NCBI GenBank assembly: GCA_903913215.1
Contig: CAIWKE010000027.1
Location: 124,001 to 188,000 of the forward strand
Length of the DNA: 64,000 nt
Reading direction: 5' to 3'
Origin: an uncultured Holophagaceae bacterium
GTDB taxonomy: Bacteria > Acidobacteriota > Holophagae > Holophagales > Holophagaceae
Shown: positions 43,575 through 54,756 of the stretch, piece after piece
Numbering within the stretch: the stretch's first letter is position 1
How the letters are laid out: the number at the start of each line of letters is the position of its first letter
The notes under the pieces: model-generated
The model's input: only the letters and a program-made list of their open reading frames with translations
Told to the model about the DNA's origin: nothing
The model's database searches: none
Position numbers and translations under genes: made by a program

Positions 43575-44894
43575 CTACACCCCCAACACTTTCCGAATCT
43601 CCCCCGCTAATACGCCCTCCCGGATCTCCGCCAGGTCGTAGCGCGCCCGGGTCATGGGCTTGCTCACCTTGAGGATGCGGGTGAGGTCGATGGGGGTGCC
43701 GCTGAGGACGCTGTCACAGGGGGTGGCCTCGATGGTGGCTTCGAGGTCTTTCACCTGCTGGTCACCGTAGCCCATGGCGGGCAGGATGCCCTTGGCATTG
43801 GGGTATTTCCGGTAGGTGGCGGCCAGGCTGGCCACGGCGTAGGGGCAGGGGTCCACCAGCTCATGGGCCCCGGCGGCCTTGGCGGCCACGACGCCGGCGC
43901 CGTAGGACATGGAGCCGTGGGTGAGGGTCGGCCCGTCCTCGATGACCAGGACCCGCTTGCCCTTCACCAACTCGGGCTTGTCGCACGTGACAGGGCTGGT
44001 GGCGCGGATGATCCGGGCCCTGGGGTTCACGAGGGCGGCATTGCGCTCAATGGCGGCGATATCGGCCTCGGTGGCGCTGTCGCACTTGTTGATGAGGATG
44101 ATGCCGGCCATGCGGAAATTGGCTTCGCCCGGGTGGTAGGCCAGCTCGTGGCCGGAGCGCAGGGGATCCGCGATGCAGATGTGGAGGTCGCTCCGGTAGA
44201 AGGGCAGGTCGTTGTTGCCCCCGTCCCAGAGGATGACGTCCGCCTCCTGCTCGGCGCTACGGATGATCTGCTCATAGTCCACACCGGCGTAGACCACGAA
44301 GCCGTTGTCGATGTGGGGCTCGTACTCCTCCCGCTCCTCGATGGTGCACTCGTGCTTGTCCAGGTCGCCGTAGGCGGCGAAACGCTGGCAGGCCTGGCGG
44401 GCCAGATCGCCATAGGGCATGGGATGGCGGATGGCCACGACCTTCTGGCCCAGCTGTTTCAGGATGTTGCTGATGTAGCGGGTGGTCTGGCTCTTGCCCG
44501 CGCCCGTGCGCACGGCGGTGACGGCGATGACGGGCTTGGTGGACTGGATCATGGTCTTGGCCGCGCCCAGCAGCTCGAAGTCGCAGTTGTTGGCGACGCA
44601 GAGGCTGGCCAGGTGCATGACGGTGGCGTGGGTGACGTCTGAGTAGGAGAAGACCGCCACGTCGATGTGCTCCCGGTGGATGAGGTCCACCAGCTCCGAT
44701 TCATCGACGATGGGGATGCCCTCGGGGTAGAGGGGCCCCGCCAGCACCGCCGGGTAGCGGCGCCCCTCGATGCCCGGGATCTGGGCGGCGGTGAAGGCCA
44801 CCACCTGGTGCGCCGGGTCGTTCCGGTACACGGTATTGAAGTTGTGGAAGTCCCGCCCTGCGGCTCCCAGGATGATGACGCGGCGTGTCGACAT
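43575..44894 (-). CDS. Cyclic 2,3-diphosphoglycerate synthetase-like P-loop protein
   Basis: 439 residues. The family begins with RRVIILGAAGRDFHNFNTVYR and has the P-loop AVRTGAGKSQTTRYI near residues 147-155, then ILWDGGNNDLPFYRSDLHI and ILINKCDSATEADI. The archetype makes cyclic 2,3-diphosphoglycerate in methanogens; bacterial members are mostly uncharacterised. The start at 44894 avoids a poorly conserved 42-residue extension. Cytoplasmic ATPase or GTPase. Confidence 0.85.
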   Translation of the reverse strand: MSTRRVIILGAAGRDFHNFNTVYRNDPAHQVVAFTAAQIPGIEGRRYPAVLAGPLYPEGIPIVDESELVDLIHREHIDVAVFSYSDVTHATVMHLASLCVANNCDFELLGAAKTMIQSTKPVIAVTAVRTGAGKSQTTRYISNILKQLGQKVVAIRHPMPYGDLARQACQRFAAYGDLDKHECTIEEREEYEPHIDNGFVVYAGVDYEQIIRSAEQEADVILWDGGNNDLPFYRSDLHICIADPLRSGHELAYHPGEANFRMAGIILINKCDSATEADIAAIERNAALVNPRARIIRATSPVTCDKPELVKGKRVLVIEDGPTLTHGSMSYGAGVVAAKAAGAHELVDPCPYAVASLAATYRKYPNAKGILPAMGYGDQQVKDLEATIEATPCDSVLSGTPIDLTRILKVSKPMTRARYDLAEIREGVLAGEIRKVLGV

Positions 44895-45048
44895 GACACC
44901 ATGCCTCTCGGTCCAGCGGAAGGCCGACACGCTCGGGAGTGGCAGTCCTGGCCTGTCCGCGACACACGGAGCATAGCCCCGCCCCGGTGCAGCCTGGTAG
45001 GAGGTTGTGGCAAGCATCACATAGGCTAGATGGGTCTATGCTTTTCCC

Positions 45049-47910: not shown

Positions 47911-47957
47911 GTTGGATGTTCCGTGGCAATTTCGGTTTGTCTTTGTAAGGAGTGCTG

Positions 47958-48641
47958 ATGGCCAATCAAATCCTCCTTGGCAAGCGTGTGCTCATCACCC
48001 ATGCCGATGCCTTCATGGGCCCAGTCCTGTGTGAGGTGTTCGCCAGGCACGGCGCCACCGTCACCCCCAGCACCGACCCTCTCCTGAGCGCCGGTGCACC
48101 CGGCGCCATCGTTGGTGCAGCGGGGCACATCGATATCCTCGTGGCCAATCTGGCCATGCCAGCACCCACCACCGCGGCCACAGAGGTTTCTGAGGACGAG
48201 TGGGAGGACACCTTTGCGGCCCTCGTGCATCCCCTGCCTCGCCTGTTCCGGGCCGTCCTGCCGGCCATGCTTGAACGTCGCTCGGGCAAGATTCTGGTCA
48301 TGGGCAGCGCCGCGGCCCTGCGGGGGATCAAGCGCACGTCCACCTACGCCGCTGCGCGCGGAGCCCAGCTTGCCTACGTGCAGGCCGTGGGCGTGGAGGT
48401 GGCACCTCACAACGTGCAAGTGAATGCCATCGCCCAGAACTTCGTGGATAACCCGACCTACTTCCCGCCCGACGTGCAGAGCAACCCAAAGTTCCAGGAG
48501 CGCCTGAAGCGCGAGGTTCCTCTGGGCCGCCTCGTCGGCGCTGAGGAAGATGCGGAATTCGCAGCTTACCTTTGCAGCGAACCAGCAGGCTGCTTTGTCG
48601 GGCAGGTCTTCCCGGTCTGCGGCGGCTGGGTTCAACGGTAG
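47958..48641 (+). CDS. Halohydrin dehalogenase-like SDR
   Basis: 227 residues. The usual SDR nucleotide motif is missing; instead the N-terminus reads Thr14-x4-Phe19-x-Gly21 (THADAFMG), and the catalytic residues are Ser117-x12-Tyr130-x3-Arg134. These two motifs define halohydrin dehalogenases. NPTYFPPDV and LGRLVGAEEDAEFAAYL also match that family. Such enzymes close vicinal halohydrins to epoxides with release of halide and do not use NAD(P). AAGGAG precedes the ATG. It is 47 bases downstream of DUF748. Substrate unknown. Confidence 0.87.
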   Translation: MANQILLGKRVLITHADAFMGPVLCEVFARHGATVTPSTDPLLSAGAPGAIVGAAGHIDILVANLAMPAPTTAATEVSEDEWEDTFAALVHPLPRLFRAVLPAMLERRSGKILVMGSAAALRGIKRTSTYAAARGAQLAYVQAVGVEVAPHNVQVNAIAQNFVDNPTYFPPDVQSNPKFQERLKREVPLGRLVGAEEDAEFAAYLCSEPAGCFVGQVFPVCGGWVQR

Positions 48642-48674
48642 CGCTTGAGACTTCTAGTCCCGCCAGCTCTTGAG

Positions 48675-49973
48675 TCAACCCTGCAGCGATCGGGCCCACG
48701 CCTCGATGCCCTCGGCGATATCGCCGACGCCGGGGCCAAAGCGGGCGGCGCCGAGCCAGTGGAGGCCGGGGGGCAGGCCTTCATTGATGTGCGCCACGCG
48801 GGCGCGGTGGCCTGGCTCTAACAGGGGGAAGGCGCTTGGGCAGGCCTCTTCACGCACCTGCAGGGCTTCGCCCAGCTCCGGCAGCCAGTGGCTCAGCTCG
48901 GCAAGGACGCCGGGCCAGGTCTCCAGCTCTGCCTCCACGGGATAAGCACCGCCCAGGTAGGTGCGGAGCTGCAGCAGCCCCGGTACGCCGCGCGGATCAT
49001 CGGCGGCCAGGGACACAGCGCCCAGGAGGCCCCGGCCTTCGGGCGGATGGAGGAGCAGGCCCAGGCCCCGCTCCCAGCCCGGCACCATCCGGTGGCGGCT
49101 GTGCCAGACCCGCAGGTCCAGACCGGGAATGGCCGCCAGCTCGTGAGCGGCTTGGGGGGCGGCCTCACCCAACAGGCCCGTCCCGGCAGCCGGGGACAGG
49201 GCCAACACCACCGTGTCGAAGTCGGCGCTGCGGTCCTCACCGTGGACCCGCCAACGGCCCTCTGGCAGCGCCTCCAGGGCCAGGGCGCGGCGTCCACACT
49301 CAATGGCAGGCAGGGAGGCCGCCAGGGCCTGGGCCAGAGCGCCCGTGCCGCCGCGGGGCAGGCAGGTATGCTCGGGCCCCATGCGCAGGCCCCCGCACAC
49401 CAGCCCACCCCGGGCCTCCAGGCCCTGGAGGCGGGGCAGGGCGCCGACATCCATGCGTTCTGGCGGCGCCGCGAGCAGTCCGCCCACCAAGGCCGGCAGG
49501 GCCTCCCGGGCAAAGCCCTCGCCCAGGCGCCGGGCGAAGAAGGTGCGGAGGTTCTCCTCGACGGGGGCGCCGGGCGCGAAGGGTTCGACCAGCAGACGGA
49601 GCTTCTCCGCGAGGCGCATGCCCGGCACCCGGAAGAGCCCGTCCAAGGTGGCGGGGCTGGGGTGCCGGCGCCCGGCCTTGCCCAGCCAGCGGGGGCCCCG
49701 TGGGCCAGGGCGCCGCAGATCGAGGTCCAGGGCGGTGCAGATCCGCCCCAACGCCGAGTCATCCCCCAGGCGCAGGGCCTGGGGCCCCCGCTCCAGCCAA
49801 CCGGACTCGCCATTCGGGCCGGGCCAGGCCAGGGTCTGGGCCCAGCCCCCCGGGGTCTCGGCGGCCTCCCAAACAGTGACCCGTCGCCCAGCCCGATGCA
49901 GGTGCCAGGCCGCCAGCAGGCCCGAGAGGCCGCCGCCGATGATCAAGGTCTGCTTGTGGTTGAAGGGGTTCAC
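48675..49973 (-). CDS. Protoporphyrinogen oxidase / FAD-dependent amine-oxidase-like
   Basis: 432 residues from a GTG at 49973. FAD dinucleotide-binding LIIGGGLSGLLAAWHLHRAG at the start, GLFRVPGMRLAEKLRLLVEPF in the substrate region, ending GLHWLGAARFGPGVGDIAEGIEAW. The overall order matches HemG/HemY-type protoporphyrinogen oxidase of heme synthesis. Chains upstream of 49973 are non-coding. The GGAG serving the GTG is part of a hairpin stem (49978-50000). No other heme genes are nearby, so the assignment rests on similarity. Confidence 0.8.
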   Translation of the reverse strand: MNPFNHKQTLIIGGGLSGLLAAWHLHRAGRRVTVWEAAETPGGWAQTLAWPGPNGESGWLERGPQALRLGDDSALGRICTALDLDLRRPGPRGPRWLGKAGRRHPSPATLDGLFRVPGMRLAEKLRLLVEPFAPGAPVEENLRTFFARRLGEGFAREALPALVGGLLAAPPERMDVGALPRLQGLEARGGLVCGGLRMGPEHTCLPRGGTGALAQALAASLPAIECGRRALALEALPEGRWRVHGEDRSADFDTVVLALSPAAGTGLLGEAAPQAAHELAAIPGLDLRVWHSRHRMVPGWERGLGLLLHPPEGRGLLGAVSLAADDPRGVPGLLQLRTYLGGAYPVEAELETWPGVLAELSHWLPELGEALQVREEACPSAFPLLEPGHRARVAHINEGLPPGLHWLGAARFGPGVGDIAEGIEAWARSLQG

Positions 49974-49977
49974 TGGG

Positions 49978-50090
49978 CTCCAGAAGCTGCGCTTCTGGAG
50001 TATGAAATAGATTGGTGAGTCGAACGCACCGGAGAGGCTGGGCCCCTGGCCCCACGGTCTTTTTCTATCTCCGAAAGCGCAGCTTTCGGA
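49978..50090. repeat. Inverted pair of GC-GCA-GC-tip hairpins (REP/BIME-like)
   Basis: Hairpin 1 (49978-50000): 10-bp stem CTCCAGAAGC/GCTTCTGGAG, loop TGC. Hairpin 2 (50068-50090): stem CTCCGAAAGC/GCTTTCGGAG, loop GCA. TGGG precedes the first and CCCA follows the second, so the two units face each other as in a BIME. Stems differ at paired positions with compensating changes. It separates the PlsC-like and HemG-like genes. Confidence 0.7.
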
Positions 50091-50119
50091 GCCCAAGACG
50101 GACATCCGATTGGGACGAA

Positions 50120-50782
50120 CTATTCCGTCGGCCGCTCCCGCAGTCCGTGGATGTCGCGGAACAGGGCTTGAAGGCGGGGCAGGTCCTCTTCCAGGTTCCC
50201 CGTGGGATGGAAGAGGGGTAGGAAGTGGATCACATGGGTTCGAAAGTCGAAGGCCACGGGCATGATGGGCACGTGGGCGGCGGTGGCGATGGCGTGGAAG
50301 CCGGACTTCCAATGGCTGACACCCTTGCGGGTGCCTTCGGGGGCCAGGGCCAGCAGCAGGGCTGGGGCATCGTCGAAGGCCTTCACGCAGGCCTCCACCA
50401 CGCCGTGGCTGCTGCGGCGGTCCACGGGAATGCCGCCCAGCCTATAGAAGAGCCACCCGAAGGGGCCCTGGAAGAGGGTGTGCTTGCCCAGCCAGGAGGC
50501 CCGCAACTCCAGGGCAAACAGGAGGGCCACGCCCAGAGGGAAGTCCCAGTTGGAGGTATGGGGGGCCACGATGGTCACCACTTTGGAGACCTGGGGGAAG
50601 GTGCCTTCCAGCTTCCAGCACCCAAGCCGCAGATAGGCCCAGCCCAAGGCAGCCACCAGCCAGCCCCGGGAATGCCGGAAGGCCGGGGGCGGGGACAGGG
50701 ATTCTGGGAGCTGGGACAAAGTGGCCTCGAGGCTATGGTGCCCGATCGGTCGATGGCCTTCGAGGTATGAATCCTTCCGCAC
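50120..50782 (-). CDS. Lysophospholipid acyltransferase-family protein
   Basis: 220 residues with PlsC motifs: HTSNWD (HxxxxD near residues 75-80), RLGGIPVDRRS, and APEGTRK near 148-154. An N-terminal hydrophobic segment lies at about 40-60. It belongs to the small PlsC-like proteins that acylate lysophospholipids or ornithine lipids. It is one of three acyltransferases in the window, with 25368-26258 and LpxL at 53266-54231. Confidence 0.88.
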   Translation of the reverse strand: MRKDSYLEGHRPIGHHSLEATLSQLPESLSPPPAFRHSRGWLVAALGWAYLRLGCWKLEGTFPQVSKVVTIVAPHTSNWDFPLGVALLFALELRASWLGKHTLFQGPFGWLFYRLGGIPVDRRSSHGVVEACVKAFDDAPALLLALAPEGTRKGVSHWKSGFHAIATAAHVPIMPVAFDFRTHVIHFLPLFHPTGNLEEDLPRLQALFRDIHGLRERPTE

Positions 50783-50946
50783 TCAGGAGCAAGGTGGAAA
50801 CCGCGAAAATTCGCGAAAGGGCGCGAAAGAAATGAAACAACCCCAAGGTCATGACGACACTTATTGAGAACTGATGAGAAAGCAGAGGGACGCTGAGGGT
50901 GGAGACTTGGCCCTTCTCGGAGGCCATTCCGCCTCCTAATAACACC

Positions 50947-53265: not shown

Positions 53266-54231
53266 ATGACCCCTCCCAAGCCTCCGAGCTTCCGGCACCG
53301 CCTGGAATACGGGGCTTTCTACCTGCTGGATGGCATCCTGGGGCGCCTGCCCTGGGCCACGGTGCTAGCCCTGGGCGAGGCGGCGGGAACCCTCTTCTAC
53401 CTAATCGACCCCCGACATCGCCGGGTGGTGCGCGAGAACCTGCGCATGGCAGACCTGGGACTGACCGAAACCCAGTGCCGGGACCTCTCCCTGGGCTGCT
53501 TCCAGCACTTCGGGAGCCTCTTCATGAGCCTGCTCCGGTTGCGCCACGCGACGCCTGAGGAACTGGACCGCTGGATCCGGGTGGAGGGACTGGAGCACTT
53601 CGATGCGGTCCAGGCTCAGGGCAAGGGCTTCATCCAACTCACCAGCCACTACGGCAACTGGGAGGCCACGGGTCTGGTCCAGAGCCTGCACGGTCGCAGC
53701 GTGGACGCCATCGGCCGCGCCCTGGACAACCCCTTGCTGGAGCCCATCTCCGCCGGCTTCAGGACCCGCTTTGGCAACCGCATCATCCTGAAGAACGGCG
53801 CCATGCGGGGCACCCTCAAGGCCCTCAAGGAGGGGCGGGGCGTGGGGTTCCTGCTGGACCAGGACGCCCTCACCATGGGTGTCTGGGTCAAGTTCCTGGG
53901 CCAGTGGGCCTCGACTTTCGCCACCGCCGGCAACCTCGCCGTGCGCTACGGCCTGCCGGTGCTCCCGGTCTTCAGCTGGCCCAACGAGGACGGCACCATC
54001 ACGGTGCGCTTCGATGCCCCCTTCGAAGTCCCCACCACCGGTGACGTGGCCCGGGACACCTGGGTGGCCACCCAGCTCATGACCGCCCGCATCGAGGCCC
54101 AGGTCCGCAAGGATCCCCGCTGGTGGTTCTGGATGCACCGCCGGTTCAAGACCCGCCCTGGCCTGGGCTACCCCCTTCCCGCTCCGCTTCCGCCCCAGGA
54201 GTGGGTAGAATCGATGCAATCCTCCCTGTGA
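53266..54231 (+). CDS. lpxL: Lipid A biosynthesis lauroyl-type acyltransferase
   Basis: 321 residues. It has an N-terminal membrane anchor, the catalytic H128-x4-E133 (SHYGNWE), RFGNRIILKNGAMRG, and FLLDQDALTMGVWVKFLG, as in LpxL/HtrB. Adds a secondary acyl chain to Kdo2-lipid IVA at the inner membrane. The start at 53266 is used; the open frame from 53191 runs through the terminator hairpin. Implies an LPS-bearing outer membrane. Confidence 0.92.
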   Translation: MTPPKPPSFRHRLEYGAFYLLDGILGRLPWATVLALGEAAGTLFYLIDPRHRRVVRENLRMADLGLTETQCRDLSLGCFQHFGSLFMSLLRLRHATPEELDRWIRVEGLEHFDAVQAQGKGFIQLTSHYGNWEATGLVQSLHGRSVDAIGRALDNPLLEPISAGFRTRFGNRIILKNGAMRGTLKALKEGRGVGFLLDQDALTMGVWVKFLGQWASTFATAGNLAVRYGLPVLPVFSWPNEDGTITVRFDAPFEVPTTGDVARDTWVATQLMTARIEAQVRKDPRWWFWMHRRFKTRPGLGYPLPAPLPPQEWVESMQSSL

Positions 54232-54235
54232 AGAC

Positions 54236-54259
54236 CGGGCCCTGCGGCCCGACTTTTTT
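54236..54259 (+). terminator. Rho-independent terminator between lpxL and greA
   Basis: CGGGCC/GGCCCG stem with a CTGC loop and a run of seven T immediately after the arm and spacer. It starts 5 bases after the lpxL stop and 27 bases before greA. Confidence 0.8.
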
Positions 54260-54285
54260 TGACCCCCCCTTTCCCGGAACCGCCC

Positions 54286-54756
54286 ATGCCCAAGCACGTG
54301 CTCGTCAAGCTCGAGAAGGATCTGAAAGAGATCAAGCAGGCCCTGCTGGTGGAGATCCCCCAGGAGATCGCCCGGGCCGCGGGGCAGGGCGACCTGTCCG
54401 AGAACGCCGAGTACGAGCAGGCCCTTGCCAAGCGCGACATGTTCCAGAATAAGATGGTGACCCTGGAGAAGCGCATCGCCGAGGTGGCCAGCCTGGATAT
54501 CAGCCGTCTGCCCAAGTCCCGGGCTGCCTATGGTTCCAAAATCACGATCCTGGACCTGGATTCCGAAGAGCAGTTCACGTACACCCTGGTCCTTCCGGAG
54601 GAACTGGATGGCCATCCCCAGCATCTCAGTATCAGTTCCCCCATTGGCATGGCGCTGGTGGGCCAAGAGGAAAGCAGCGAAGTCCGGGTCCAGATCCCTG
54701 CCGGAATCCGCCGCTTTGAAATCCTTGAACTAAAGACTGTTCACGATTTAGCATAA
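54286..54756 (+). CDS. greA: Transcript elongation factor GreA/GreB family
   Basis: 156 residues. The N-terminal antiparallel coiled coil (about 1-78) has the acidic tip [19 protein letters not shown], whose Asp and Glu coordinate Mg2+ in the RNA polymerase channel. The C-terminal FKBP-like domain has [12 protein letters not shown]. Rescues backtracked RNA polymerase by stimulating transcript cleavage. The start at 54286 is the only one giving the usual N-terminus. Confidence 0.92.

Follow-up and report, generated by a model that had tools for sequence, protein, structure and literature searches.

The gene described here lies in a 64,000-nucleotide stretch of one contig (the window) from an uncultured Holophagaceae bacterium. 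It raises the question of whether its product is a plain SDR oxidoreductase or a halohydrin dehalogenase (HHDH), and how it came to be in this lineage. A preliminary description of the locus had pointed to an HHDH on the basis of two motifs, T-x4-F-x-G at residues 14-21 and S-x12-Y-x3-R at residues 117-134. Both are present at these residues, as THADAFMG (motif 1) and SAAALRGIKRTSTYAAAR (motif 2, with S117, Y130 and R134). T-x4-F/Y-x-G and S-x12-Y-x3-R are the motifs by which Schallmey and co-workers discriminate HHDHs from SDRs (PMC4989007, PMC11976700). In an alignment of 37 sequences T14, F19, G21, S117, Y130 and R134 are invariant, and among the best 80 of 415 related stretches from GTDB genomes motif 2 is found in 80/80 and motif 1 in 78/80. 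Ala replaces the motif 1 Gly in L026:4012-4692, and the F-x-G portion of motif 1 is gone in L075:8001-8660; motif 2 is intact in both. The identity to HheD2 (146 of 222 positions) and HheD8 (150 of 222), together with the retention of the motifs among relatives, excludes a chance origin of these motifs. Features of the locus are listed in Table 1; the relatives' loci possess GAAGGAGAG-type ribosome-binding sites at the position matching that of the window gene.

Table 1. Features of the dehalogenase locus, in window coordinates.
Feature	Position	Strand	Remarks
D-type halohydrin dehalogenase gene (assigned by sequence)	47958..48641	+	227 aa, ATG start, TAG stop
AAGGAG ribosome-binding site	47947..47952	+	5 nt upstream of the dehalogenase ATG
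Motif 1, T-x4-F-x-G, residues 14-21	47997..48020	+	Predicted nucleophile (halide) pocket replacing the NAD(P) glycine-rich loop
Motif 2, S-x12-Y-x3-R, residues 117-134	48306..48359	+	Predicted catalytic Ser-Tyr-Arg triad
Putative acquired segment (approximate)	47911..48674	+	DUF748 stop to amine-oxidase 3' end; missing in congeners
Host flank, DUF748/AsmA-family protein, 953 aa	45049..47910	+	Congener identity 58-70%
Host flank, flavin-containing amine oxidase/protoporphyrinogen-oxidase-like gene	48675..50312 (start unrefined)	-	Convergent with the dehalogenase gene

Automated annotation had been expected to call the protein a plain SDR, and this is what was obtained: the Pfam matches are adh_short_C2 and adh_short, and NCBIfam returned generic SDR models alone, none passing its own cut-off. 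The protein nevertheless lacks the features of NAD(P)-dependent classical SDRs, as it has H15, F19 and R134 and possesses neither TGxxxGxG nor YxxxK. Three SDRs encoded in its own genome, about 27-33% identical to it, have the TGxxxGxG loop; their residues 15 and 19 are G and residue 134 is K. T14, G21, S117, Y130 and R134 are common to all aligned HHDHs, residue 19 being F or Y.

In the search against solved structures, HheD2 (7b73; PMC9629495) and 8xxb, the PDB entry of an HheD8 mutant with chloride, came first with E values of about 1e-96, followed by HheB (E 5e-54) and then by FabG-like SDRs mixed with further HHDHs. In pairwise comparison over about 210-220 residues, the protein is 68% identical to HheD8, 66% to HheD2, 46% to HheB and, among A/C-type enzymes, 38% to 6a41, 33% to HheA2 and 29% to HheC, the last two compared as the sequences of PDB entries 1zmo and 1pwx. 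The enzymes HheD19-38 are 57-95% identical to verified HheD enzymes (PMC4989007), a range that includes the values of the window protein for HheD2 and HheD8. Judged by sequence, its subtype is D, which is known and widespread. With close relatives already crystallised, the protein is an ordinary member of the HHDH family, and the main oddity of the gene is its solitary presence in a lineage where the genomes searched otherwise lack it.

HheD2 shares the motifs and the triad over 222 aa and is the top structural match, while 76 of the 222 positions differ and the host is another one. HheD8 has the same motifs over 222 aa and a near-identical pocket loop, AQNFV(D/E)NPTYF, although its solved form carries three engineered changes. 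HheB of Corynebacterium sp. N-1074 (4zd6) belongs to the same length class and has the same triad, but it possesses Tyr in motif 1 where the window protein has Phe, and the pocket loop AQHWTQNKEYF in place of AQNFVDNPTYF. HheA2 and HheC also have motifs and triad in common with the window protein, but are only 29-33% identical and carry a longer segment ahead of its residue 49. FabG-like SDRs, including those of the own genome, share the Rossmann-like SDR fold but retain TGxxxGxG and YxxxK for NAD(P).

The phylogenetic analysis is in agreement with this assignment. In a tree of 28 rows, rooted on the own-genome SDRs and with HHDH references limited to types A to D, the window protein groups with HheD2, HheD8, HheB and 19 genomic relatives (99/99), and the A- and C-type enzymes stand apart from this group (96/87). 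Constraining the window protein with the SDRs was disfavoured (p-AU 0.017). The preliminary description had named a position outside the HHDH clade as grounds for dropping its reading; the tree places the protein among the D- and B-type enzymes. An exclusive D clade without HheB, which has a long branch, was not rejected in this reduced tree (p-AU 0.57); in a first tree, with many long branches, HheB had fallen inside the D group, a placement that does not count as evidence.

Structure modelling had been suggested as a further check. The AlphaFold monomer, built from 37 sequences (pLDDT 84, pTM 0.83; residues 214-227 poorly modelled), retains the SDR fold, as had been proposed from the sequence, and its best PDB match by both Foldseek and VIA-align is HheD2 (Z 30.1, 214 residues, 2.6 A), above all NAD-binding SDRs. 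The next matches are HheD8 (Z 27.9) and HheB (Z 27.4), and the first ordinary SDR is a putative oxidoreductase (Z 25.6). Since SDRs reach a Z of 25.6, near that of HheB, the fold alone is not decisive; it is common to HHDHs and SDRs, so that the subtype call rests on sequence. Taken together, the identity to solved D-type enzymes, the tree and the model support the HHDH reading of the preliminary description. Its word "rare" was an overstatement, because one scan of GTDB species genomes yielded 415 related stretches and the D subtype has many known members.

Membership of the HHDH family is evident from sequence, tree, fold and motifs. The protein very likely performs halohydrin dehalogenation and would do so without NAD(P); we infer the reaction, the loss of NAD(P) binding and the donor from homology and comparison. 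In HheC, a Tyr activated by Arg deprotonates the hydroxyl and the oxygen displaces the vicinal halide, which exits to a pocket that motif 1 builds together with other loops, equivalent to the nicotinamide cofactor site of SDRs (PMC4989007, PMC11976700). Every residue required by this mechanism is found in the window protein. It would combine an SDR fold with the triad Ser117-Tyr130-Arg134, NAD(P) binding having been lost. Arg134 would lower the pKa of Tyr130, which would deprotonate the hydroxyl group of a vicinal haloalcohol; attack of its oxygen on the neighbouring carbon would then expel chloride or bromide and yield an epoxide. The expelled halide would enter a pocket made of Thr14, Phe19, Gly21 and the 160-169 loop. 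In reverse, the enzyme may use halide, azide, cyanide or nitrite to open epoxides.

The distribution of the gene points to horizontal acquisition. The best 80 of the 415 related stretches, which are HHDHs (the remainder possibly not all), are 68-89% identical to the window protein and nearly all belong to Pseudomonadota, mostly to the betaproteobacterial Rhodocyclales and Burkholderiales, with a minority from a few Thermodesulfobacteriota, Myxococcota and one Bacteroidota MAG. Relatives at 80-89% identity among these 80 are also nearly all Pseudomonadota. The closest homologue, at 89% identity, does not single out a donor, and the closest MAG is labelled Deltaproteobacteria; the donor was probably a proteobacterium, judging from these homologues. 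The gene was found in none of the other genomes among 199 relatives, many of them congeneric (1/199, the source genome itself), nor in any other of the 396 phylum genomes sampled (1/396, again the source genome).

The conserved gene order of the host consists of a cDPGS-like gene, a DUF748 gene and then an amine-oxidase or acyltransferase gene. In the congener loci L096, L097 and L099, the 3' end of the amine-oxidase gene lies within tens of bases of the DUF748 stop, and no dehalogenase is present. The extra segment of the window, about 0.76 kb, corresponds to a single ORF and its leader, most likely inserted in the gap separating the DUF748 gene from the amine-oxidase gene. The GC3 of the dehalogenase gene, 0.77, lies between that of donor-like homologues (0.60-0.68) and that of the host flanks (0.84-0.92). 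Absence from relatives, the empty site in congeners and the intermediate GC3 are most simply, and most likely, explained by transfer of one gene that has since ameliorated in part and stayed functional. Against seven close relatives, dN is 0.07-0.10 and dS 0.9-1.9, giving a dN/dS of roughly 0.05-0.09 that is approximate because dS is near saturation; by these estimates the gene is under purifying selection.

As for mobile elements, inverted repeats were not found at the junctions nor tRNA genes in the window; the one repeat family detected, of 21 nt in three copies, is weak and lies in coding sequence. The search for a sigma-70-like promoter at the insertion found none. The order of amine-oxidase and acyltransferase genes beside DUF748 varies (window 48675-50800; congener loci L089, L096 and L097), which means that the junction was rearranged more than once. 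Within the amine-oxidase gene (window 49000-49900) GC is 0.76-0.77, versus 0.60-0.70 around it. Two long coding-like ORFs on the minus strand, 53404-54666 and 43578-45020, had no Pfam match at 1e-5; the latter, 79-89% identical in congeners, looks on visual inspection like a cyclic 2,3-diphosphoglycerate synthetase.

The neighbourhood of the gene was also compared among the best 80 of the 415 relatives, with neighbour genes called by a simple ORF script, by which small neighbours may be missed. No conserved neighbour was found around these 80 loci: the commonest immediate neighbours occur at 4-5 of them, mostly in related genomes, and larger clusters, such as ABC transporters, lie at scattered distances. 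An epoxide hydrolase or dehalogenation-pathway partner adjoining the gene was not found. The genome lacks a PF06441 epoxide hydrolase, while alpha/beta-hydrolase-type epoxide hydrolases without PF06441 may be present. In five of the 80 relatives, all proteobacterial (L042, 5958-8684; L018; L019; L020; L037), an HMG-CoA-lyase-like gene lies directly downstream and methylcrotonyl-CoA carboxylase alpha just upstream, a leucine-degradation setting. In Dechloromonas SSD3 no stop codon separates the carboxylase ORF from the in-frame HHDH ORF (908 aa). Such a stop, along with one extra base, is found in the near relative L037, so a sequencing indel is likely behind the 908-aa ORF.

Three other explanations were weighed. 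A plain NAD(P)-dependent oxidoreductase of the SDR type, similar to HHDHs by chance, would fit the Pfam and generic NCBIfam matches and the SDR fold of the model. Nonetheless, this reading is extremely improbable and was rejected on motifs, identity and tree: TGxxxGxG is missing and Arg134 replaces the Lys, the protein is 66-68% identical to crystallised D-type HHDHs, and its placement with SDRs is disfavoured. It is also very unlikely that the gene is a contaminating or chimeric sequence instead of a resident one. Its host is the sole holder among 199 relatives and the assembly is a draft of 41 contigs; however, one contig of 198 kb spans both junctions with host synteny on either side, GC3 is intermediate rather than donor-like, and the contamination of the genome is 0.45%.

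The third explanation concerns the natural role, which could be other than dehalogenation, such as ring opening or closure of an endogenous epoxide by some other small anion, or the handling of an intermediate of acyl or leucine catabolism, HHDH activity being real but incidental. Such a role is compatible with the identity as a D-type HHDH, and we regard it as possible, if on balance doubtful. The 80 relatives without conserved partner genes speak for it, as do the five loci with the methylcrotonyl-CoA carboxylase/HMG-CoA-lyase-like group, the report that only two known HHDH genes adjoin an epoxide hydrolase and that other functions "cannot be excluded" (PMC4989007), and, weakly, the lack of PF06441 in the genome. 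However, other D-type enzymes act on halohydrins when assayed (PMC4989007), and the carboxylase context is a minority that may reflect chance insertion. With high confidence, we regard the gene as encoding a D-type HHDH; it most likely arrived as one horizontally transferred ORF, with a proteobacterium as the probable donor, and is held under purifying selection.

The gain beyond the preliminary description is this well-defined, most likely horizontal acquisition. The gene extends the D-type enzymes to a lineage where the searched genomes show no other, and its congeners offer a clear empty site. In the Pfam and NCBIfam releases searched, no model identifies the window protein as an HHDH. For biocatalysis, its value is that of one further homologue, 66-68% identical to crystallised enzymes. 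That D-type genes are widespread without conserved neighbours bears on the natural function of HHDHs. More speculatively, and with somewhat lower probability than an alternative role for this enzyme, D-type HHDHs in general may have an undescribed role beyond the dehalogenation of xenobiotics, and may spread between phyla as lone genes because this role needs no partner.
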